From: Hirudo medicinalis
Taxonomy: Eukaryota > Annelida > Clitellata > Hirudinida > Hirudinidae
Length of the DNA stretch: 64,000 nt
NCBI GenBank assembly: GCA_011800805.1
Contig: MPNW01000140.1
Coordinates: forward strand, 12,138-76,137
Direction: 5' to 3'
Shown in pieces: positions 32,691-64,000 of the stretch (position 1 is its first letter; the number at the start of each line of letters is the position of its first letter). Made by a program: the position numbers and the translations under genes. Below the pieces are notes generated by a model, which was not told the DNA's origin, searched no databases, and saw nothing but the letters and a program-made list of their open reading frames with translations.

Positions 32691-32836
32691 AGATTTATTA
32701 CTTTTATTTTTAATCTTAACAACTTATAATTTTTGGAACTAATAAATCGTAAGGCTAAGAATTACATTATATCCTTCATGGTATCTTGAAGCTGACTAAC
32801 TTAAATAGCCATACATTAGGGCAAATTAAATCTCAA

Positions 32837-33241
32837 ATGGCAACCACCGATAAAGAAGGAGCAGGCGATTTGTTATTTCCTAAGGAGTTCGACAATGCAG
32901 ACGTTCTCTTGATTTCAGAAGTCAAGATGCTGTTGGAATTTAGAAAAGCTCAAAACGAAAATTCAGAAGAAGTTCAAGAACTGCCTCTCACCACAATGAA
33001 AACTCTTGCCTATGCTCAAAGATTCTCCAAATTTTCTAATAGAGAAACCATAAATGCTACAAGAAACATGTTGATGCACAAGAAGCTCCATAAGTACGAG
33101 CTTGCCAGCATTGCAAACCTATGCCCTGAGACTGCAGAAGAAGCCAAATCATTTATACCCAGTTTGGAGGGCAGGATTGATGATCATTCACTGCAAGAAG
33201 TTCTTGACGATATTAAGACAAATAGAAGCTTTCAGTATTGA
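32837..33241 (+). CDS. POLR2D: RNA polymerase II subunit RPB4, intronless
   Basis: A single 135-codon exon encodes 134 residues, close to the 142 of the human protein. RPB4 pairs with RPB7 to form the stalk of RNA polymerase II. It acts in initiation and links transcription to mRNA export and decay. Diagnostic stretches are [66 protein letters not shown] and the C-terminal [10 protein letters not shown]. The start is set by ATGGCAACC; the frame is open a little upstream but has no other ATG. A poly(A) signal follows at 33362-33367. The human gene has introns, so the intronless state suggests intron loss or a retrocopy. All key motifs are intact, so it is probably functional. Confidence 0.95.
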
Positions 33242-34645: not shown

Positions 34646-35115
34646 TAAAAATAGCGTTTTACCACAAAAACATTAGTCTCCTTAAACCACTACAAATAAA
34701 TATAAAGTTAAGTTAAGACTCCCGATTGAAAGAAATGTATGATGCCAATCTTCGAGTTCAAGATAACTTTAGGGTTGGAAGGACGCAATTTTCGTTTCTT
34801 AATGCTAATTAAAATGAAGCTAAATGCGAATTTAAAGATAAAAAAAAATTAATTCTGACAGGCAAGGAAGGCATTTTGGTCTAAATTTAGTATTCCGGGA
34901 AAATACACTTCCTTATTCTTATTGCGTTGTTGTTAATAAATGTGCGACGGCTGGTCTTTTTCTTGCTTACTTTGCTCTGCTCAACCTCTAGTTTTGGTTT
35001 ATTATTAAATATAATATTTGCTAGAACTGTCAAGAGACTTACTTCCGACCGAGAACATCATCCCAAAAAAGAATATTTGGAGGAAAATATTGGAAAGTCC
35101 TTTGAAAGTGTCGCA

Positions 35116-38100
35116 ATGACGGATACCCTTGGCATTTCAACAATTTTAGAATCTAAATTTGAGAGTGTCCCCATAACCAAAGACATCAAGTTAGAGTTGG
35201 AAACAAAAGCTGAGCAACGTTACTCAATTGAGCAAATTCAGAAAATAATAATTGCTTTACCTTTCTTTGAAGAGCAGCTGAATAAGAATGATGATAACAA
35301 TTCGCAAAGTAATTCCAGGATAGATGTAGGAAGAAGCATCAATGACAAAAGTAATTCATTTCTTAGTGAAAACAATGAGATTGATTGCAGGATACTTGCA
35401 GATGATGATTTATCTGTAAGCTTGTCAAAACTTGAAATTGATGAAAAAGTCCATTTGAGCAAAGTAAATGGTGAAAAAACAAACAACTCTCTTGGCACTG
35501 ATGGAGGAATACAGGATTGTGAAGTTATACCAAGAGGAAAAGAATGTAAGGTAAAAAATGGGACAAAACCATATAACAGAGACGTACTTCAGAATGCACA
35601 TGCTTACTCCAACTATCTTCCTAATCTTCCTTCACTAACTTGCTTCAATAATAATAATTACAACCCAGGATATAGACAAACATGCAATATCTTAAAGCAT
35701 GAAGATGGGTTTTCAGGTGGGACAGTTATGATACGGAGTCCACTCACCACAGTCCCTCATACTGCACCTCAGGTGATCAATCTGAAGCATGTTTCAGAGA
35801 TATGTCCTTCCAATAACACTTTTGGTCCTGTTCCCTACACACAACCAGAGACTTTACCAATTAATATGGCTTTGGAAAAGCAGATCATGCCAGCAGTCTT
35901 GCAACCTTCCTTGGATGAGGATTTGCAGTTTATAAGCTATCCATCATGTCTAAATTCTCCTCGATCAATGGAGCAAATTCAGTCTGGAGTAGATTGCAAT
36001 GATTCCAGCCTTGGAGATACCATTCTTAAAGAGATTACAGATATTTCCTCATGCCTAGGAGATAGTTGCTTCAACAAGAAGATTTCTTTTGGTGATTCTG
36101 ATCTTTCTTGGAAAACTCTACAATGTCCATCATTTATAAATTCTCCTCAGTCGATTGAACCAATTTCACCTGGAGTTGATGACTTCGATCTCGGGGAAGA
36201 CTTTTTCAGAGAGTTTACAGTTGATTCCTCTTGCCCAAGAGATAATGTTCGCTCTCTCTCTTTTGGAGACACCACTCCTCCCTATGATCCTTTAAATGAC
36301 ATTATAGTAGGGAAAGATGTGAATGGCGAATTCTTGCTTGTTGTGCAAAGTTGTGATGACGACTCTAGGACTAATGGTTAGTTATATTTTTCCTTTAATT
36401 GTTGCTGATCGATTGGGATAGGTTTTGATATTATAATCTTGCTTATTAATCCTTATAAATATTCGCATTTTTGTTTTAGACTTTATGTTCCAAAGATATC
36501 TTAAATGGGTTCAGAGGACTGAAATCAAAACGCCAGGTTGAAATTTAAAAAAAAAACATTTATTACTACAGAAGCATAATATTTAATTATTATTAATAAT
36601 TATTTGATGTCAAACAGGGAAACCTATATGCCTTAATGAAAGAAAGCTCTTGCTATGCAATAGATATTTCACTCATTTAAATTATTAATCATCATGTGCA
36701 GAGTTGTTTGAAAAATTTGATTGCATGGAATTTTAGCTTTCACATTTTAGTTTTTCTACATTTTTAATGGCTCAATTAGATTGTCGCGATTAATGAAATT
36801 TTGTTGATTACGAACCGTTCGCAGACAAGGACATCAATGCCTACAGAGCTATGGCTTCGTTGCCTGAGGAAATGTTGACAAAATCTGATGAACACGGCAA
36901 TACGTGAGCTAACGATCAGAATCTAAACTTTAATCTTGAATTACATATTCTATTATATCACATATTACATATTTTATGATATTGTCAAGTCCTATTATCT
37001 TTTTGGTCACCACAACTTCATTTCACTAAGTTTGAAATTTTGTTTCTTGTTCCTTAAATATTAAGTAGGTAAGCGTCAAAAGGAAATATGAATCAAGTTC
37101 AACATAATGACCGATGCCTGCGGGCAACCCGACGGGAATTTTTTCCTCCTAATTGGACTACATGCTTTTTTCCCTGAATTAAATTTTTTTTTATGTTGAA
37201 GGTTGATTACAGATGTGGTCTTAAAATGCAGCCCATCAACTTTCAAGGCTCTCTTGGAAAGATATAAAAGGAGTGGATTACTTTCAGAATTTGTTAACAA
37301 GAAGAATAAGTCCAATCGAGTAAGTTTTCTTTTAAGTTTGCTTTATTTCATTCACATTTATTTATTTAATTTCATAAGTAAGCAGTGAACAAATGCCTTT
37401 TACTTGTTCATGAGCAAATAAACGAGAAAATTTGTCAGAGAGGTTGTGACTCGAACATATCATTTACAATAGGTAGGGAGTAAGGTCGTAATCATTAATG
37501 AGGCAGGTGAATCGAATGTAGGTTGTGGGTGAAACATGTTATTAGGGGAGTTCCAAATTTTGTTTTGATTATGCGATTAGTGAAAGAGTATTTAGTCGTG
37601 TCTAGTGAGCAATAGTCAGGCCTAAGTTAAAACTGATGTCCTTTAGTGATGAATAATTAGTGAAGTCTGTTGATATCAAGTTGATCATCTTGCATAGTAA
37701 ACAGAGATCAGCTTTGAGACAGTGATGTTCAAGTGATTTAAGTTTCACTGCCTTGAGATGATCATGGTACCCTAGTTGTCTGACAAGGGATGATGGCCTT
37801 GTTAAATATCTTTTGAATCTTTTCAATGCTCTCAATCAAGTACTTGTGGTGAGGGTTCCAGACCTGACAGCTGCACTCAAGGAGTGGTCTGACATAGTCA
37901 CAGAAAGCTTTGATGAGAAGATTTACATCCCTAGACAAAATACAGTCTAATTTTATGTTATGATTTTTACTTAAATAGACCCCACTGCATTATGCAGTCC
38001 ATCTCTGTGATGCACAAAAGGTGAGACTCTTGGTTGAAATGGGAGCTGATGTGAACATCGATGTAATCACATCTTCTTGCGGGGTACAAAAATGGAAAAC

Positions 38101-44518: not shown

Positions 44519-53226
<8,708 letters not shown>

Positions 53227-54529: not shown

Positions 54530-57500
54530 ATGGATTTGGAATCGAATAATGAAGGCCAGTTTATTGAAGAGTATCATGCGGAATTCATGATGAAAAGAAT
54601 GAATAATTTTTTTGAACAGGAACAGGTGAATGTGTATTAACACTATTATTATTACGATTTATAACCTTTTAACAAAAAGTTAACAGGTCGATATATGAAA
54701 ACAATGTCATCTACCTAACTTACTTTGCTGCAGTCATTGATTAAATTTAAAATAATTTCAATACTTGCAAAGCTCTGTGATGTAATTCTGGTCATTGGAG
54801 ACACAAAGATTGGGGCTCACAGAGTTGTACTTGGTTCAGCTTCTGACTACTTTGCTGCAATGTTCACCAGCAATATTAGGGAAGCAACTGTGAGGGAGGT
54901 GACAATGAAAGATATTGACCCAGAATCACTCAAGTCACTGATCAAGTATATGTACTTAGGTACATATTCGGTACTTAATGCGGATGACGAATTTAGTACA
55001 AAGCCATTACTTAAAAAGGTGTTTAGTGTCAGAAATTTCATAAAATTTAACAGATTTCATTTTAAAAATATTTTTTTTTTAATCAAGTGGAATATTTGAT
55101 CTATTTACTTTGTTTTATCACTTTTCCACCATTAGGAAATCTGGAAATAAGGGAAGAAACAGTGGAGAGTCTAATGCAAACAGCCTGTCTTCTTCAACTG
55201 AACCAAGTTGTCGGTGCATGTTCAGAGTTCCTAGAAAAACAACTTCATCCCTCTAATTGCATTGGAATCAGACATTTTGCAGATGTCCAGGGCTGCTCCT
55301 CTCTTTTCCGGAGAGCAGATGATTTTGTGATCGTAAGTGTTTCAATAATTTCAAGAGCCTTGCTCTTAAATGGTTCTTAATAACATTATAATGTTATTAT
55401 TAATTAATTATAATTATTCAATTATGCATTTGTTTGAAAAAGTTCCATTAAATGTTATTTGAATAAATTGGATAGGAACACTTTGAGAAAATCATAAATA
55501 GCCAAGAGTTCTTGAAGCTGTCCTCCGATGATTTGTTAGAATTGTTCAAGAATGAGGATCTCAATGTCTCAGATGAATCTATTGTTTTCCATTCCCTTGT
55601 CCATTGGGCCAACAATGATCCCATAGGCAGAAAGCTCCATCTACCTAAGTTGCTGGCTCATGTCAAATTACCCCTTTTGGCTCCACAGGTTGTAAGAGAA
55701 ATTATTTGCTTGAGGATATTAAAAGTAGTTCAATTAGGCCTAAGACATTTTATTTTAAACTGTTATTTATTTTAATTTGATTACTTTAATATATTATTTT
55801 AATTTGCTATAAAGCAAGAATTGCCTCAGTACAGTCAGCGTGTTGCCTGTGCAGGTTGGCCGAATGGGTTGCAATCCTGCGGCGGTTATAGCAACAGCCT
55901 TAATGTGTTGTGTTCACAACCCAGCCTGCACCACCAGGGAGCGCCCTTGGGTGGGGGCGCCATGTAAATGGCAGATCGATTAAAAAAGTACCTTGTTTGA
56001 AAACATCCTGTTCGGATATATGAGGCACTCAAAAGATCGGATAAATACAAAGTACTGACGTTATCAATGCAAGTCCTGTACTAACTTACGTCATATGGAT
56101 GATCAGCATTGCTATACATACATTTAACATATCATATTAAAGTTCTTTTTTGTTGTCACTGGATTTATTGCTGTTGCAAGAAATGTTTCAATCTCTTCTA
56201 ACAGTTTCTAGCTGACCATGTGGAGATGAACAGACTTTTCAAGGATGAACCCTCCTGCCAAGAGCTCATCTTTGAAGCCATGAAGTACCACCTGCTCCCC
56301 GAGAGACGACTCACCATGCAGAACTGGAGGACCAAACCTAGGAAGTCCACTGTAGGTACTTTGTATGCTGTCGGAGGCATGGACTGTTCGAAAGGTGAGT
56401 AATTGAGTTATCAATTTGAACTGATGTACAACTTAACTATTGTTACTACTATGTTAATGAACTCAATTTTATACCTTTGGATTTAGGCTACTCTTGAAAT
56501 GTTGGTTCCCAAAAATTAAGATGCTAGTATACTTGTACTCAAGAAAAATCATACAAAATAAATTGGCATTTATAATGAAATGTGAAATTCTGACAGGTGC
56601 AATCAGCATCGAGAAGTACGATCTCCGAACTGACAGCTGGGTGGAATTTGCTAACATGAATGGTCGAAGACTCCAGTTTGGTCTTGCAGTCATTGAGGAT
56701 TGTTTATATGTGGTGGGTGGGAGAGATGGACTGAAAACACTCAGCAGCGTGGAGTGCTTCAATCCGTCCACAAAGACCTGGTCGTTAGTCACGCCAATGT
56801 CCACGCATAGGCATGGCTTAGGTTTGGATGGATTTATTTTTTATTTATTTATTCATTCAAAAGATCAAGTGCACAATTTTAAATTTTGTCCACATTGTGG
56901 TTGAATGATAACTGGAGTTAGCATTTGAGTATTGGCAGGTTGGCTGAATGGGTTGCGCTCCTGCATGCAGTGGTAATGGCACCAGACATAATGTATGGTG
57001 TTCGCAACCCGGCCTGCATCGTTAGGGAGCTCCCTGTATAATGGTAGATCGATTAAAAAGTGCCTGCACATCCTATTTGGATACATAAGGCAATCAAAAG
57101 ATCAGTTAATTGCAATTGCAATTGTTCTGGTATAGATGTAAAAGTCTACTTTTAAAACATCTTTAGTATTTGGTAATAAGGATTATTCAATGCATACTAT
57201 GGAAATGGTTCTTACTATTCTTCTGTTTTCCATCTATTAATTCCTTCTATTTCAATCTAATTTTAATATTCAGGTGTTGCGGTATTGGAAGGTCCCATGT
57301 ATGCCATCGGAGGACACGATGGTTGGTCGTACTTGAACACTGTGGAAAGATGGGATCCCCAGGCTAAACAATGGTGTTACGTTGCCTCGATGTCCACACA
57401 GAGAAGTACTGTTGGAGCCACTGTTTTGGGCAACAAGTTTGTTTTATAGATAGTTTAACTATTTTGTTTGTTTTATAGATAGTATATTGTTGCTGATGAT

Positions 57501-58597
57501 AATATATTGATTTAATTAGTTGTTATTGCTGTTAATTAATTATCAGTGTGGGCAAACCCCTCACTGGTTCACACAATATGCAATGCGAAAAACAAGCAAA
57601 ATCAAAAGAAAAAAAGCAACAAATATGTTAGACTTCTTAACTACAAAGTCAATAGTTGCAGACCAAGTCTCCTTAAAAATTGTGAGATTATTTGAGCTGT
57701 CTCATTATTATAACCTCTCATTGGATCACACAATACGAATAATAATAATAGTAACATAATTACTAATATAATATAATTAATAATAATAGTTAATTTGTAA
57801 GGCGCCATGTGCATAGCGTCAGAGGCGCCTTGTGTTTTCGTTGTCCTGGCTTCATGTTGTTTATCAGAATTATCACTGCTATTATCTTGACACACTTAGG
57901 CTCTATGCAGTTGGAGGGAGAGATGGAAGTTCATGCCTAAGATCAGTGGAGTGCTTTGACCCTCATACTAACAAATGGACTCTTTGTTGTCCCATGTCTA
58001 AAAGGAGAGGAGGAGTTGGAGTAGCAGCCTGTAATGGCTTTTTGTATGCAGTTGGAGGCCATGATGCCCCTGCCAGTAATCCTAGGTCAAGCAGGTTTGA
58101 CTGTGTGGAAAGGTGAGTAGTATATACAAGTATCATTTTTTAAAGACAGATTTTTAATGCCATTCAAGCTCTTAGCTTTTATATCAAGGAACTTTCTAAC
58201 AGCTACTGGCATCTACATTTCTTATTTTAGATATGACCCAAAAACTGACAACTGGACCATTATAGCTCCTATCAACTCTCCCAGGGATGCAGTGGCTGTG
58301 TGTCTTCTTGGAGACAAGCTCTTTGCTGTAGGTGGCTGTAATGGACAGCAATACCTGAGTGATGTTGAGTGCTATGATCCTCAGAACAATTCTTGGAGCC
58401 CGGTAAGATGTATTAAGTTATAATAATTTTATCAATTATATAATTTATTAGGGAATTATTTTTAAAATATTGAGCTTGTGATCATAATTTATTAACAGGT
58501 TAAGCCTCTCTGCATTGGAAGAGCAGGTGCTTGTGTTGTACATCTGAACAATAAGAACATCAACCGATCCCCAGACACCCTAGGTTCCATCAGCTGA
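54530..58597 (+). CDS. BTB-Kelch protein of the KLHL1/4/5 group (ORF1, ends at UGA)
   Basis: Ten exons (54530-54625, 54773-54959, 55136-55332, 55476-55688, 56205-56394, 56597-56821, 57274-57436, 57900-58112, 58231-58402, 58499-58597) give 584 residues. Such proteins are substrate adaptors for cullin-3 ubiquitin ligases, and some bind actin. The order is BTB (about 33-135; [20 protein letters not shown]), BACK (about 140-250; [20 protein letters not shown]) and six kelch blades (about 285-565), for example [12 protein letters not shown] and [42 protein letters not shown] and GGHDAPASN are diagnostic of the KLHL1/4/5 group. The propeller closes with IGRAGACVV. Another 16-18 residues reach the TGA at 58595, after which the same frame stays open for 682 codons. 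Two SINEs and a LINE tail lie in introns. Confidence 0.95.
55850..56049 (+). repeat. tRNA-derived SINE, copy A
   Basis: Begins GCAGGTTGGCCGAATGGGTT (A-box region) and has TGTTCACAACCCAG as B-box region. It then has a shared body through ATGGCAGATCGATTAAAAAA and ends near CAAAAGATCGGATAAATAC. It matches 56934-57104 along its length. It lies in intron 4 of the KLHL gene. Confidence 0.75.
56934..57104 (+). repeat. tRNA-derived SINE, copy B
   Basis: Begins GGCAGGTTGGCTGAATGGGT and has GTTCGCAACCCGGCCTGCAT as B-box region. It then has TGGTAGATCGATTAAAAAG and ends near CAATCAAAAGATC. It is a diverged second copy of the element at 55850, in intron 6 of the KLHL gene. Confidence 0.75.
57720..57860 (-). 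mobile_element. LINE 3' tail fragment
   Basis: On the minus strand a piece with the AAGGCGCCTCTGACGCTATG block is followed by TTACAAATTAACTATTATTA. This is the shared 3' end of the LINE family. It lies in intron 7 of the KLHL gene. Confidence 0.65.
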
Positions 58598-58615
58598 CTA
58601 TCGGCCTGTGGGTCG
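58595..58615 (+). promoter_or_regulatory. Candidate stop-codon readthrough site (TGA CTA)
   Basis: The KLHL stop is TGA followed at once by CTA, the UGA-CUA context linked to readthrough in animal mRNAs. A small hairpin can form four bases after the stop codon (CGGCC, loop TGTG, GGTCG, 58602-58615). No AATAAA occurs between this stop and the next in-frame stop at 60644. Whether readthrough occurs is inference. Confidence 0.6.
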
Positions 58616-60646
58616 TGTAGCGGGAGGGGTCAAGAGAATGCCTATCATGGAAAATCTTTTCTGATTGATCAAGAAGAAAATGACTTTCTTGATCCTCAAT
58701 GGTGCCCCTGCTACATTGACAGAGAAGAGATGCCTTTCAAAGATGCCCAGACAAGCACTGACCCAGATTTTGCTTCTTCTTTCATTCCAGCTATTAGTCA
58801 ACCGTTGAGATTCCAGAACATTCATCTATTCCACTTTAGGAAACTTCTTGAGTGTGATGCTAAAAAAATGAATGATTCTTCGGGTGTGATTGTTGAATTG
58901 AATGAGAAAGTTTCTTCTCTATGTGATCGCATTAACTGCCACCTCTGTGCCCAGCCTTTGAGTCCTTTGAAATCAACCAATGAACCAAGGCTTGTACCTA
59001 CATTTGCAGAGCTGAAGGCAGCCTTTGCAGTGAATCTATGTGAAAAAGTCTTTAATAATAGCTATCAAAATAAACATTTGGGGAAGGAGTCAAACAGACT
59101 TGCAAATATTCTTCCATATGGGAGACCAATGTCAACATTTGAGATGAGAGATCTTGAAGATTTCCAATTGTTTCCTCCAGGGGATGAGTGCATTCCAGAT
59201 TACCATAAACATGAGAAGAGAATGTGTACATCACTCATGGAGACAACCCTTGACATCCCTATGAGTTACCAAAGATGTGACAAAGTCATTCTAAAAGAAA
59301 AGGGAGTGTTGGATTGTCTTAGTAAACTCCATTTTGATAAACGTGTCATAGCGCAAAGCTGCAGTCCCCATTCTAATAATTTAATTGCAGATAGGTTCTC
59401 AATTTTCAATCCTTGCTATGAAAGCACAACTCCTCCAGATGAAAAAGAGACAGATCCATCTTTAGTTAGATTTTCTAAAGCTGTTAAATTCTTGCATCTT
59501 TCCTCCCATGAGCGACCATTCTTTTCTGTTTCTAATGAGCATTTTCATAAAGTTGCAGTAAAGCTTAAAAGCAGAAGCTCATCTTTTAGTGGTGAGAAAT
59601 CTGCTTCTTTCAATTCACCTGGCAAAATGCCTCCTCCTCTTCCCTCCAGGAACAAATACAATGTGAAATCATTTGATTTAGTTTCTCCTTTTTCAGGCTC
59701 CAAAGACTCCAATGTCATTAGTTGTCCTTTAAATCCCATGCAGTCGAGCATCAAAGTGGGTCATCTTCACAAAAAAGACCCAAAGAACAGAATTTCTTGG
59801 TCTGGCTCTCCTAGTATTGTTGCTATGAAACCTGATGTCATTCCTTCTCTTCCTGTGAGACCAAACTCAATATCTGATGCAAATGAAGAATTCTATTCTG
59901 TTAGACAATGGTGCCACAAGTTTCCTGAAAGGTCCACGAGCGGAAAATCTGCCGCAGAAAAAATGTTCACATCGTCGAGATTGTCTGCTGACTTCTCTGG
60001 GCAAGTTATCTATGAGCGAGATGAGGGCAATGAGGAAGGAAAGAATAGTGATGAAGTATGTGATCCTGATAGGGCAAATGTGGAAGAGAATGTCTATTGG
60101 GAACTGGAGAACCAATGCAAAGAAAATTCTGAAAATACAGAAGGCACAGTAAAATCAGATCTTTCCTGTTGTTCTATGAACAATTCCAAAAGCTTTTCAG
60201 ACTTTGTTCTGGGAAAGAGTCAAACTTTGACAGAAAATGCTGCAGGGGATTATGGCCAATCCAACTGCTATGAAGATATTCAATTTTCAGAGAAGAATGT
60301 TTCTCTTTCCAACAGAGACTTATATAATGTTCCCTTCAAGAAACTGAGCAAGACAACTACAGTCAAGAGTTATGTCAGTTTAACATCAAAGGAGAAGAGG
60401 CCAAACCCTCTGCTAAAAAATTTGAATGCAGCCACTTCTTGTGAAACAAAGTTGACCTCCTTAAGCAATAATTCTGTTCCATCATCTGTTAGGAAAATCT
60501 CATCAAAGAAGCTGCAGGCAAAGCCAATTGTTCCTGAAAAGCCGAAAAAATTGAGGGATTCATCTGGCCAAAGGAGGCAGAGGTGTCCAACACCACCAAG
60601 GTTATCACCTAATGGTCTTTCCATAGAAGACATTGTCCAGATATGA
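58598..60646 (+). CDS. In-frame 3' extension (ORF2) of the KLHL gene, probable readthrough product
   Basis: 682 codons stay open directly after the KLHL UGA, in the same frame and the same exon. The first ATG is at 58730 (638 codons from there). It could therefore be a readthrough C-terminal extension (total about 1,267 residues), a second cistron, or a product of unseen alternative splicing. The sequence is Ser/Lys-rich and mostly disordered, with a possible short helix near 58855-58920. SH3-ligand-like motifs are PPPLPSR (about 59632), PSLPVRP (about 59845) and PIVPEKPKK (about 60524). Tyrosine motifs of SH2-ligand type are YSVR (about 59896), YWEL (about 60096), YEDI (about 60269), YNVP (about 60322) and YVSL (about 60370). 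No catalytic domain is visible. Poly(A) signal at 60745-60750. Function is unknown; a docking tail is my inference. Confidence 0.8.
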   Translation, partial: LSACGSCSGRGQENAYHGKSFLIDQEENDFLDPQWCPCYIDREEMPFKDAQTSTDPDFASSFIPAISQPLRFQNIHLFHFRKLLECDAKKMNDSSGVIVELNEKVSSLCDRINCHLCAQPLSPLKSTNEPRLVPTFAELKAAFAVNLCEKVFNNSYQNKHLGKESNRLANILPYGRPMSTFEMRDLEDFQLFPPGDECIPDYHKHEKRMCTSLMETTLDIPMSYQRCDKVILKEKGVLDCLSKLHFDKRVIAQSCSPHSNNLIADRFSIFNPCYESTTPPDEKETDPSLVRFSKAVKFLHLSSHERPFFSVSNEHFHKVAVKLKSRSSSFSGEKSASFNSPGKMPPPLPSRNKYNVKSFDLVSPFSGSKDSNVISCPLNPMQSSIKVGHLHKKDPKNRISWSGSPSIVAMKPDVIPSLPVRPNSISDANEEFYSVRQWCHKFPERSTSGKSAAEKMFTSSRLSADFSGQVIYERDEGNEEGKNSDEVCDPDRANVEENVYWELENQCKENSENTEGTVKSDLSCCSMNNSKSFSDFVLGKSQTLTENAAGDYGQSNCYEDIQFSEKNVSLSNRDLYNVPFKKLSKTTTVKSYVSLTSKEKRPNPLLKNLNAATSCETKLTSLSNNSVPSSVRKISSKKLQAKPIVPEKPKKLRDSSGQRRQRCPTPPRLSPNGLSIEDIVQI

Positions 60647-62175
60647 TGATTGTCATTTACACATGTACTTATTTCTATCATTGTTACACTTAAGAGATTT
60701 TTAAAATATTAAATATTACATTTTTGAGAATGTTATTCATGGAAAATAAATCAATTCTCTTTTTGTAATACGCTTTGTCAATACAGTGATACTTTTCTTT
60801 TGCATGTTCTTTGTCTGATAAAAAGATTGACATGCTCTTTTTATAAACCTTTTATTTTGGATTTTTTTATTGTATATAATCAATAAACAATGAAGAATCA
60901 AACTGTAAAAGGGCAGTCGTAAGAGACATTCTTCTGTGTACCTGTACCTTTTCTAGGAATAGTTCTTTTTTTACCTCTTATGCTTGGATTGGTAGCTTTT
61001 TATTTTAACTCTTCATCAGCAATAAGCAGCAACACATAGCTAGAGTTTATATTTTTATTGCATTGTTGCGTTAATTTATTTTTCAGGTTACTACTGTAGC
61101 CTTCTCAACAATTCCACTTTAGAATGATCATTAATTAGTCTTCATAATAATCATTATAGTTATCGTATACTTTAATCTTACAATCCAATCCTTAATTTTT
61201 ATCATCATGATATATCGTGTGGTATTTTTCATTCTAAATTTTTTTATTCGAATATGCAAATTGGCCATTGCTTCCATCAAATTTTGATCAATTTTAATTT
61301 GTCATTTTTTTTGAATTTTTGCTAGTTCCTTTATTCAAATATTTGTTGTGCTTTTTAAAGCTTTTGACATGTTTTCAATATTCACCTCACTTCTTTTCAT
61401 TCTTGTTACAGTTGATGCACCTGATCGGTTCTTGGCTATTGCTATCTTGGCTATCTTTGTAATACATGGCCCTTGGACTTAAGTGCATCAATAACTTATC
61501 AGAGGGTTGCATATTAAAAATTACTTTGGCATTGCTGTCATTCCTGGCTAAAATTATTGATTCACTTATTGGACATTTTCTTGATTGTTTTGAGGTGTAT
61601 CAATATGATGTGCATTTTGCTAGTTCTGTTACAGGATTTCTGAAAAACTAGTCGGGATACATTAATGTTGCATTCCCTGCCTGTGATCAAATCATTTTAG
61701 AGATATCTTGAATTTATTCATTTCGTGATTGAGAATAAGTTTTAGGTTTACGAGAGGCTCTACCTGCCGTGTTGCGTTATTCGAAATATTTTTGACGAAA
61801 TCAGTAAGTGTTCACCTCCAATATTGGTTTTGGGATTCCACAAAATTTTCTATTTGGTCTTTATTGTGTTAATGTGTTCTTGATGAGTTGCTCGCTAATT
61901 TCGTCAGTGTAAGTGACGTTACAAGTACATCAAACCTTTCAACTTTGTTTTAGGTTGTGGTAAACATTTCACCTAATCTGTGTTGTCTTGGAAACAGATA
62001 CTAACTTGGCAGGAGCGACCGTATAAAATGTTCCTGCTGTCTTCAGCAGTCATGCTGGCTGCGGGGTTTCTAAAGACCTAGGGTCTAGGGAGATACTATC
62101 ACATCTCGGCAGATTTCATTTTCGATAAAAGATTGAAGTCCATAAAGTAATTTGTGGGAATCGGAGGAATCTACG
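60647..62175. other. Intergenic
   Basis: Holds the 3' untranslated region of the KLHL/ORF2 mRNA (AATAAA at 60745, another in TCAATAAACAATG near 60881). After that, AT-rich sequence without supported coding, and presumably the promoter of the gene at 62176. Confidence 0.6.
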
Positions 62176-63394
62176 ATGTCAGACAGGGAAACTAAAAAGC
62201 TTCAGATACCCATAACAGGAGGAGAAATGAAGTTGTTAAAGAAGCTATCGATTTTCACTAAATGTGATTTATTTACTAAAAATAAGCAGATGTTGGTTAG
62301 AAAGAATAGATACAGGTCAACAAGACCGAACTCGACCGATTGCGTGCTGGAAGAACCTCAAGCAGACGACAAAGGAGACCAAGTGTTTTGCGGTGATCGT
62401 GCTTCGTTATGCAACATTGAAGCATCGAGTCTGAAATTGTGTTCTCTCATTAAGAAAAGCCCAACCTTAACAGGATTGGAACCAAGATCTGTTATGATGA
62501 AGATGATTGAAACAAACGAGGAGGAACTTTTGGCAATGGAATCTGATCCCACGAGTACCAAAGTGATTCATTGTTTTTAAATAAGTTACATATTCCTTTA
62601 CAAATCCGCCGTTAAAGTCTCTCTTGAGAGATGGAACTACTTATTTCCTCCCTAAATTGATTTTTAAATTTGTAATCTACATATCTTGAATTCATCTACA
62701 TATCTTGAATATAATTATATTTAATGTCAATTAAGGAGTGGTTTAACTTTATTGTGATGAGATCAGGTCGAAGAACGATTTACATTGAGAATGCTGGATA
62801 ATCTGAAAACTGAATTTAAAGCTCGCTCAGAGCATGAAATAGGATTGAAAGATTTCAAAGTAATATTAAGGCAAAATTGCTCTGAAATATTTACAAAAGT
62901 AAATTACACTTACTCTATTTTTAGATGTTTTAAATTTAATGCCTTTAAAAATATCCTTTTTTTTTATATATTGTTTATAGTTAATAAATTTTGCTAAAAA
63001 AGTTACTTTTCTCCACAATGCTGATAGCTAAAATATAATATCTACAAAAATTTGCTAACCTAACCCATTACAGGAAAGAGACATGGAGACATTTTTTCAA
63101 AGGATTGATTGCTTTTCTGATGGCTTTATTACCTTGGATGCTTTGTGCAGTTACATGCAACTCATATGCTCAAAAAGCTTTTACATCAAAGATAAAGAAA
63201 AAGAAATGTTCTTCAAGTTACCCGCCAAATGCGTCACCTCTCCACATAGGGAGGATGTCTTGAGGGCTGTGCAATTGTGGAAAGATCCTGTTCAACACTG
63301 TCTTAGTGAGTCATTTGCCTGCTGTAGCAAAGATGGAGTCTTAAGCTTCTGGTCAATGGCTGGGCCAAAGTTGAAGAAATCCAAATGCCTAGTT
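62176..63394 (+). CDS. N-terminal part of a WDR49/WDR64-like gene, runs off the window
   Basis: Three phase-0 exons are visible: 62176-62562, 62767-62898 and 63074-63394; a donor (GTAAGA) at 63395 leads out of the window. The first ATG is at 62176. The first exon is basic and unrecognised. Exon 2 has RMLDNLKTEFKARSEHEIGL and DFKVILRQNC. Exon 3 has an EF-hand-like loop region (FFQRIDCFSDGFITLDALCS), then HREDVLRAVQLWKD and CCSKDGVLSFW, which looks like a first WD-type strand. Helices, an EF-hand and then WD repeats is the order seen in WDR49/WDR64-type proteins, but without the propeller the assignment stays tentative. The donor chosen for exon 1 (GTGATT) is weak. Confidence 0.5.
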
Positions 63395-64000
63395 GTAAGA
63401 ACATGTTGAATATAAAATATTCATTTTTGAGTATAAATTACCAAGTATAAAACACACGAGTATAAAATAATTTACTTTTTTTTAAAAACTTTATTGAACC
63501 TCAAGAGCATAACAAAGAGCACATACATAAATGACAAAACAGTTCAAAGGGATCATAAAAAAAAAACAAATAAAATTCTCAATAACAGACATAAAAAGGG
63601 ATATAATGGATATATAGGGGATTATGAGCGACAATCTGTAAAAACTCAGATTTTTTAGTTCTTCAAAATATAGTTTTATAAACAGTTTAAGGGTATTAGC
63701 AAATTTATGGTCATACTTAAACACCCATCCCTAACAAATCCATTCCTGTAATGAACTTTGCAATCATCAATGATTGTACTACCCATGTTAATACAATTTT
63801 CTCTTCATACATATACATGAATTAACAGTTTAGGCATTTATTGATCCATAAATATTAAGTACATTGCTAGAAATAAAGGTATTAACAGCTGAAAGTAGTG
63901 GGAAAATGTAAAATAGCAGTAATAAACCTTTTATGAAGTACATGCAAGGGAAGAAATTTGGAAGGGTAAGTGGTTGCCCATGCAATATTGCAATATGCTG
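63395..64000. other. Probable intron of the WDR-like gene
   Basis: AT-rich, with no exon that continues the frame of 63074-63394 before the window ends. The Phe/Ile-rich minus-strand ORF at 63491-63724 looks like low-complexity sequence. Confidence 0.5.

Follow-up and report, generated by a model that had tools for sequence, protein, structure and literature searches.

A BTB-BACK-Kelch gene with an in-frame UGA-CUA and 682 further open codons: a candidate for programmed stop-codon readthrough

The Kelch gene and the open frame beyond its stop

The DNA analysed here, a stretch of 64 kilobases (kb) from contig MPNW01000140.1 of assembly GCA_011800805.1 (hereafter the window), carries on its + strand a BTB-BACK-Kelch gene (54530-60646) whose frame meets an in-frame UGA and then stays open, in the same exon, for a further 682 codons. 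Ten exons, with joints placed from the genomic sequence, are connected by GT-AG junctions into one frame. The first nine lie at 54530-54625, 54734-54959, 55136-55332, 55476-55688, 56205-56394, 56597-56821, 57274-57436, 57900-58112 and 58231-58402, and the start of exon 10 (58499-58594) supplies the last Kelch strand and a 16-residue tail that reaches the stop. This first open reading frame (ORF1) encodes 597 residues, is terminated by the TGA at 58595-58597, and matches the Pfam families BTB (2e-28), BACK (3.6e-30) and, in six stretches, Kelch_1 (3e-84), which places the product among the BTB-BACK-Kelch (KLHL) proteins. Motif similarity to human sequences puts the gene presumably in the KLHL1/4/5 subfamily; the best 60 of its 193 matches to solved structures include no KLHL1/4/5 chain. 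A paralogue on contig C175 ends earlier, and the UGA of the present gene sits 12 residues beyond the C-terminus of that paralogue. Two introns of the gene hold diverged copies (55850-56060 and 56935-57115) of a repeat of about 200 base pairs, resembling a short interspersed nuclear element, with shared blocks of 20-48 nucleotides (nt) that are 81-95% identical and a G+C content of 0.49 in the first copy.

The second frame (ORF2, 58598-60643, + strand) follows the candidate readthrough stop directly within exon 10 and ends at a tandem TGA TGA (60644-60649), of which the first triplet (60644-60646) closes the frame; an AATAAA at 60745-60750, found by a hexamer scan, is the likely poly(A) signal. 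Of 8,581 stop-to-stop runs counted over all six reading frames of the window, which average 13.8 codons, ORF2 is the longest. In 2,000 first-order Markov sequences built with its dinucleotide steps, a single frame stays open for 180 codons at most, so that the 682 codons beyond the stop far exceed chance. The arrangement itself, a KLHL-type frame that stops at this TGA and then runs on for 682 codons of a length unexpected by chance, had been reported in the original prediction and is confirmed on re-reading. The same prediction held that no poly(A) signal separates the two parts, and a scan for six poly(A)-type hexamers agrees: none occurs in 58598-59068, the first after the stop is an AATAAA at 59069, inside ORF2, and further AATAAA copies lie past ORF2 at 60745 and 60882. 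Its estimate of about 1,267 residues for a long form needs correcting to 1,280, since ORF1 contributes 597 residues and the extension 682 codons.

The ORF2 product is rich in serine, carries six PxxP motifs, has no Pfam match and is probably mostly disordered. ORF2 is present as a single copy in the 133-megabase assembly, in which a second copy or haplotype was sought and not found.

Stop context and predicted RNA folds

The stop is followed by CUA (58598-58600), a triplet that as CTA makes up 1.1% of the trinucleotides in the window, and thus stands in a leaky context, UGA CUA. Three papers bear on this context: UGA followed by CU is described as a core readthrough element (PMC4207609), UGA-CUAG is the mark shared by four genes of mammals that are read through efficiently (PMC4132726), and for the human consensus UGA CUA (G) by itself readthrough at a level around 4% is given (PMC4973966). 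The readthrough-prone context claimed earlier is therefore both present in the sequence and in line with these accounts.

Directly 3' of the stop, a small hairpin is predicted on the + strand (58598-58620). Folded alone it reaches -7.6 kcal/mol (z -2.6, with 4 of 200 shuffles as good); with the stop added it is unremarkable (z -0.5), and the 40-nt stretch prefers another fold (z +0.4). The hairpin named in the original prediction is thus notable in isolation and ordinary in longer stretches. A much stronger predicted fold sits just downstream, in two competing forms. The first is a long imperfect stem (UGUAGCGGG...CCCUGCUACA, 58615-58716, + strand) of 102 nt and -36.3 kcal/mol (z -4.0, matched by 0 of 500 shuffles), which starts about 18 nt past the stop, ends near +120, and ranks first by z and second by energy among 227 windows of the messenger RNA (mRNA); the top three 102-nt windows by z all fall within +20 to +156. 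The second is a three-way fold (58654-58728, + strand) of -25.8 kcal/mol, with z -4.85 (0 of 200 shuffles) and z -5.14 (0 of 500 shuffles), first by both z and energy among 260 mRNA windows of 75 nt, the next of which has z -2.62. An earlier scan of the spliced mRNA, not centred on the fold, had given 58654-58728 as the lowest-energy window among 779 of 75 nt. The grid of 260 and 227 windows was placed after that scan to include the outlier windows, so the ranks are somewhat flattering, although the margin at 75 nt is still wide. By these folding models, no predicted structure elsewhere in the mRNA is as unusual as this one, which lies no more than about 130 nt from the stop, and the gene would belong to the minority of readthrough genes with a downstream RNA structure. 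In flies and mosquitoes, according to PMC5100048, structures of this kind are present in 9-10% of readthrough candidates and in <1% of other transcripts. No transfer RNA (tRNA) or known RNA family was found at the fold.

Base-paired RNA around a stop could also guide adenosine-to-inosine editing, by which UGA would be read as UGG (Trp). The A of the stop is bulged in one predicted stem of 31 nt, and strong predicted structure lies nearby, but the 31-nt stem is unexceptional (z -0.5) as well as short, and we consider editing highly improbable. Decoding of the UGA as selenocysteine is likewise unlikely: no family of the selenocysteine insertion sequence (SECIS) is among the five Rfam matches obtained with E up to 10 over 58400-63500, and a loose SECIS pattern gave 13 matches, with none convincing among the eight folds examined.

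Other stops in the same genome served as controls. Thirteen Kelch-bearing stretches were taken from 64 Kelch_1 matches; the gene end could be read with some confidence in four of them, and the other nine were dropped because their last exon was uncertain. To these four ends were added the end of ORF2 itself and that of a neighbouring Rpb2-type gene (about 46060-53226 in the window), which we take to be POLR3B. The frame stays open after the six control stops for 8, 34, 18, 28, 26 and 0 codons, against 682 here, and their lowest fold z values range from +0.2 to -2.3, against -3.4 for the Kelch gene on the same coarse grid.

Conservation of ORF2 and the routes by which it could be translated

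A search of about 5.8 billion proteins (4,939 candidates, E up to 1) gave two matches to ORF2, P0001 and P0002. Relatives were compared as these two proteins only, both of which start downstream of the UGA. P0001 (638 residues) is 99% identical to ORF2, with six differences. P0002 (582 residues), from a relative, shows 83% identity; over ORF2 codons 97-682, 485 of 586 residues are identical and 4 are gapped, the final 26 residues are identical throughout, and 37 of 40 are identical over codons 97-136, with no fading of conservation toward codon 97. Judged from these alignments, ORF2 evolves as a real protein over codons 97-682, as the extension of a readthrough gene should, and P0002 leaves codons 1-96 uncovered. 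The comparison of orthologues that the original prediction had proposed is thus favourable for most of ORF2 and leaves out the stretch just after the stop. No fragment of about 84-266 residues across the stop was found among six candidates, and of 208 and 95 pattern matches to the DNA of relatives in genomic and viral contigs, respectively, none was confirmed.

We consider programmed stop-codon readthrough the probable explanation of the locus. It accords with the conservation of ORF2, the leaky context, the outlying predicted fold and the control stops, and the original prediction is in this respect supported in part, the late start of P0002 standing on the other side. One mRNA would then yield two proteins. 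Most ribosomes would stop at the UGA at 58595 and release a BTB-BACK-Kelch protein of 597 residues, which presumably acts as a substrate adaptor of Cullin-3. In a minority, a near-cognate tRNA would read the UGA, an event favoured by the adjoining CUA and by a stable RNA structure some 20-130 nt downstream, and these ribosomes would continue for 682 codons to give the 1,280-residue form with its long C-terminal tail. What we say of readthrough by ribosomes, of its rate and inserted residue, and of the function of the tail, we infer from the sequence.

Several observations weigh against readthrough. The weakest point of the case is the late start of P0002, which begins at ORF2 codon 97 (GTG in the window) though the window has ATG codons at 45 (ATG45) and 91 (ATG91). 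Had the relative retained both within an open frame, gene prediction would probably have set the start further upstream, and the frame of the relative may therefore be interrupted or changed there. Codons 1-44 are in neither relative, and codons 45-96 are only in the near-identical P0001. A codon-usage test of codons 1-64 barely separates the frames (0.126 versus 0.107), the test itself being weak, with the right frame chosen for only 71% of 68 known coding segments. No fusion protein of 704-2240 residues with ORF2 was found among 7,923 candidates, although gene calls on unspliced genomic DNA would not show one. After CUA comes a U in place of the G found in CUAG; the 100 nt counted from the stop fold in an ordinary way (z -1.05, rank 56 of 774 by energy), as does the window 58626-58697 (z -1.4). 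Finally, passages of PMC5100048 report abundant readthrough only in Pancrustacea among the species tested. Because the relatives leave a gap at the stop and P0002 starts at codon 97, other routes to ORF2 remain, though less likely ones.

One such route treats ORF2 as a downstream cistron of its own, with translation starting at ATG45 (58730) or ATG91 after reinitiation, internal entry, transcription from its own promoter or addition of a trans-spliced leader, with the predicted fold as part of the leader. The start of P0002 at codon 97 would suit such a cistron, as would the position of the fold, which ends just upstream of ATG45. Yet chance would leave the frame open as far back as the UGA in 7% of cases for 44 codons and in 0.5% for 91 codons, and the right phase brings in a further factor of one third. 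No poly(A)-type signal lies between the two parts, and the conservation of P0002 is undiminished toward codon 97. A Ciona leader was not found, which tests one lineage only. On this evidence a separate cistron is very unlikely.

A second route is alternative splicing, in which an intron within exon 10 removes the UGA in some transcripts and fuses the Kelch end to ORF2 in frame, its retention giving the short form. Candidate cryptic donors lie on the + strand at 58526 (CAG/GTGCTT) and 58583 (TAG/GTTCCA), and a candidate acceptor at 58790 (TTTCATTCCAG/CT), all in phase 1. Scored alongside the 25 introns placed in this analysis, donor 58526 outscores 16 of 25 donors and acceptor 58790 outscores 13 of 25 acceptors, their phases fit, and a non-coding sequence upstream would agree with the late start of P0002; these, too, count against readthrough. 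However, among 337 AG sites within exons 10 or more outscore acceptor 58790, six of them within ORF2, donor 58583 outscores just 2 of 25, and use of donor 58526 would remove the last Kelch strand. The stretch is, moreover, open for 64 codons (3.5% by chance) and has a G+C content of 0.45, compared with 0.17-0.37 in the 25 whole introns, a modest point, as 19 of 235 intron windows of the same length reach 0.45. Splicing would also leave the UGA-CUA and the fold unexplained, and we regard it as unlikely.

The stop might, finally, be a nonsense variant or a base error, the gene being normally one long frame and the assembly or the individual carrying the stop. The base is shown by one assembly only, and P0001 is uninformative: no in-frame ATG, GTG or TTG occurs from 58499 to ORF2 codon 44, so that P0001 begins at the first possible start and cannot test this explanation. 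A random stop would, however, rarely fall at the end of the Kelch domain, as UGA-CUA, ahead of the structure that stands out most among those predicted for the mRNA, and a variant or error is left with little probability.

Apart from the Kelch gene, the window contains an Rpb4-type subunit exon (32759-33241) and, on the + strand, an open frame of 496 codons with no Pfam match (34891-36381). If the Rpb4-type exon is CRCP/RPC9, two RNA polymerase III subunit genes are linked here. Elsewhere in the assembly, a COX1 piece with a duplicated block beside an N (G000:C456:12202-13068, in a 112-kb contig) reads with AGA as Ser and ATA as Met, an invertebrate-like code, and probably stems from mitochondrial DNA copied into the nucleus or from a misjoin. 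Bacterial contigs in the assembly are suggested by another COX1 match (G000:C459:20763-22199, on a contig of 55.7 kb), which covers nearly the whole family and has no stops, and by Kelch matches on contigs C257, C1296 and C1150 whose frames measure 820, 450 and 1,727 residues.

Comparison with known readthrough systems

Programmed readthrough is already known as a mechanism, and the Kelch gene would be a new case of it. Few conserved readthrough extensions that run to hundreds of residues are known, and among Kelch genes the known case is fly kelch. Among the papers listed by full-text searches on stop codon readthrough in Kelch-type genes and in lophotrochozoans, no title or abstract opening names this gene. 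We propose tentatively, and with slightly less than even confidence, that UGA readthrough into a very long extension has evolved here a second time, and independently, in a BTB-Kelch adaptor of another subfamily than fly kelch and outside Pancrustacea, and that UGA-CUA and a fold of about 110 nt within the coding sequence drive it jointly. If so, Cullin-3 adaptors have more than once acquired a long tail through readthrough. A second case in a paralogous subfamily, combining stop context and RNA structure, would let one ask why Kelch adaptors gain tails in this way and what role the tail plays. If the animal is not a pancrustacean, the gene would also place functional readthrough outside the one clade for which passages of PMC5100048 describe it as abundant.

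The closest parallel is Drosophila kelch, with its ORF1-UGA-ORF2 layout: in both genes a BTB-Kelch adaptor ends at a UGA that a long in-frame extension follows. The fly gene presumably belongs to the KLHL2/3 subfamily, unlike the present gene (presumably KLHL1/4/5), and a further difference is that the searches run for the ORF2 described here gave only P0001 and P0002 as homologues. According to PMC4132726, the kelch product of Drosophila melanogaster grows from 76 kDa to 160 kDa by readthrough, commonly with an efficiency of about 5%, and 3' structure in the mRNA is given there as a stimulator.

The UGA-CUA(G) genes OPRL1, OPRK1, AQP4, MAPK10, LDHB and MDH1, as far as the consulted passages describe them, share with the Kelch gene a UGA followed by CUA. 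They differ from it in the next base, which is U in the Kelch gene and not G, and in the length of the extension, 682 codons compared with 13 residues in MAPK10 (from passages of PMC4132726); the Kelch gene is further distinguished by its strong predicted downstream fold. In this last respect it resembles Drosophila dfr/vvl and hdc, with a stem-loop downstream of the stop that is described for dfr in PMC13170385 and, for hdc, by citation in PMC5100048. The dfr stem-loop, at +9 to +59, promotes readthrough in fly cells (PMC13170385) and follows a UAG stop, whereas the main predicted stem of the Kelch gene follows a UGA and extends from about 18 nt after the stop to about +120.

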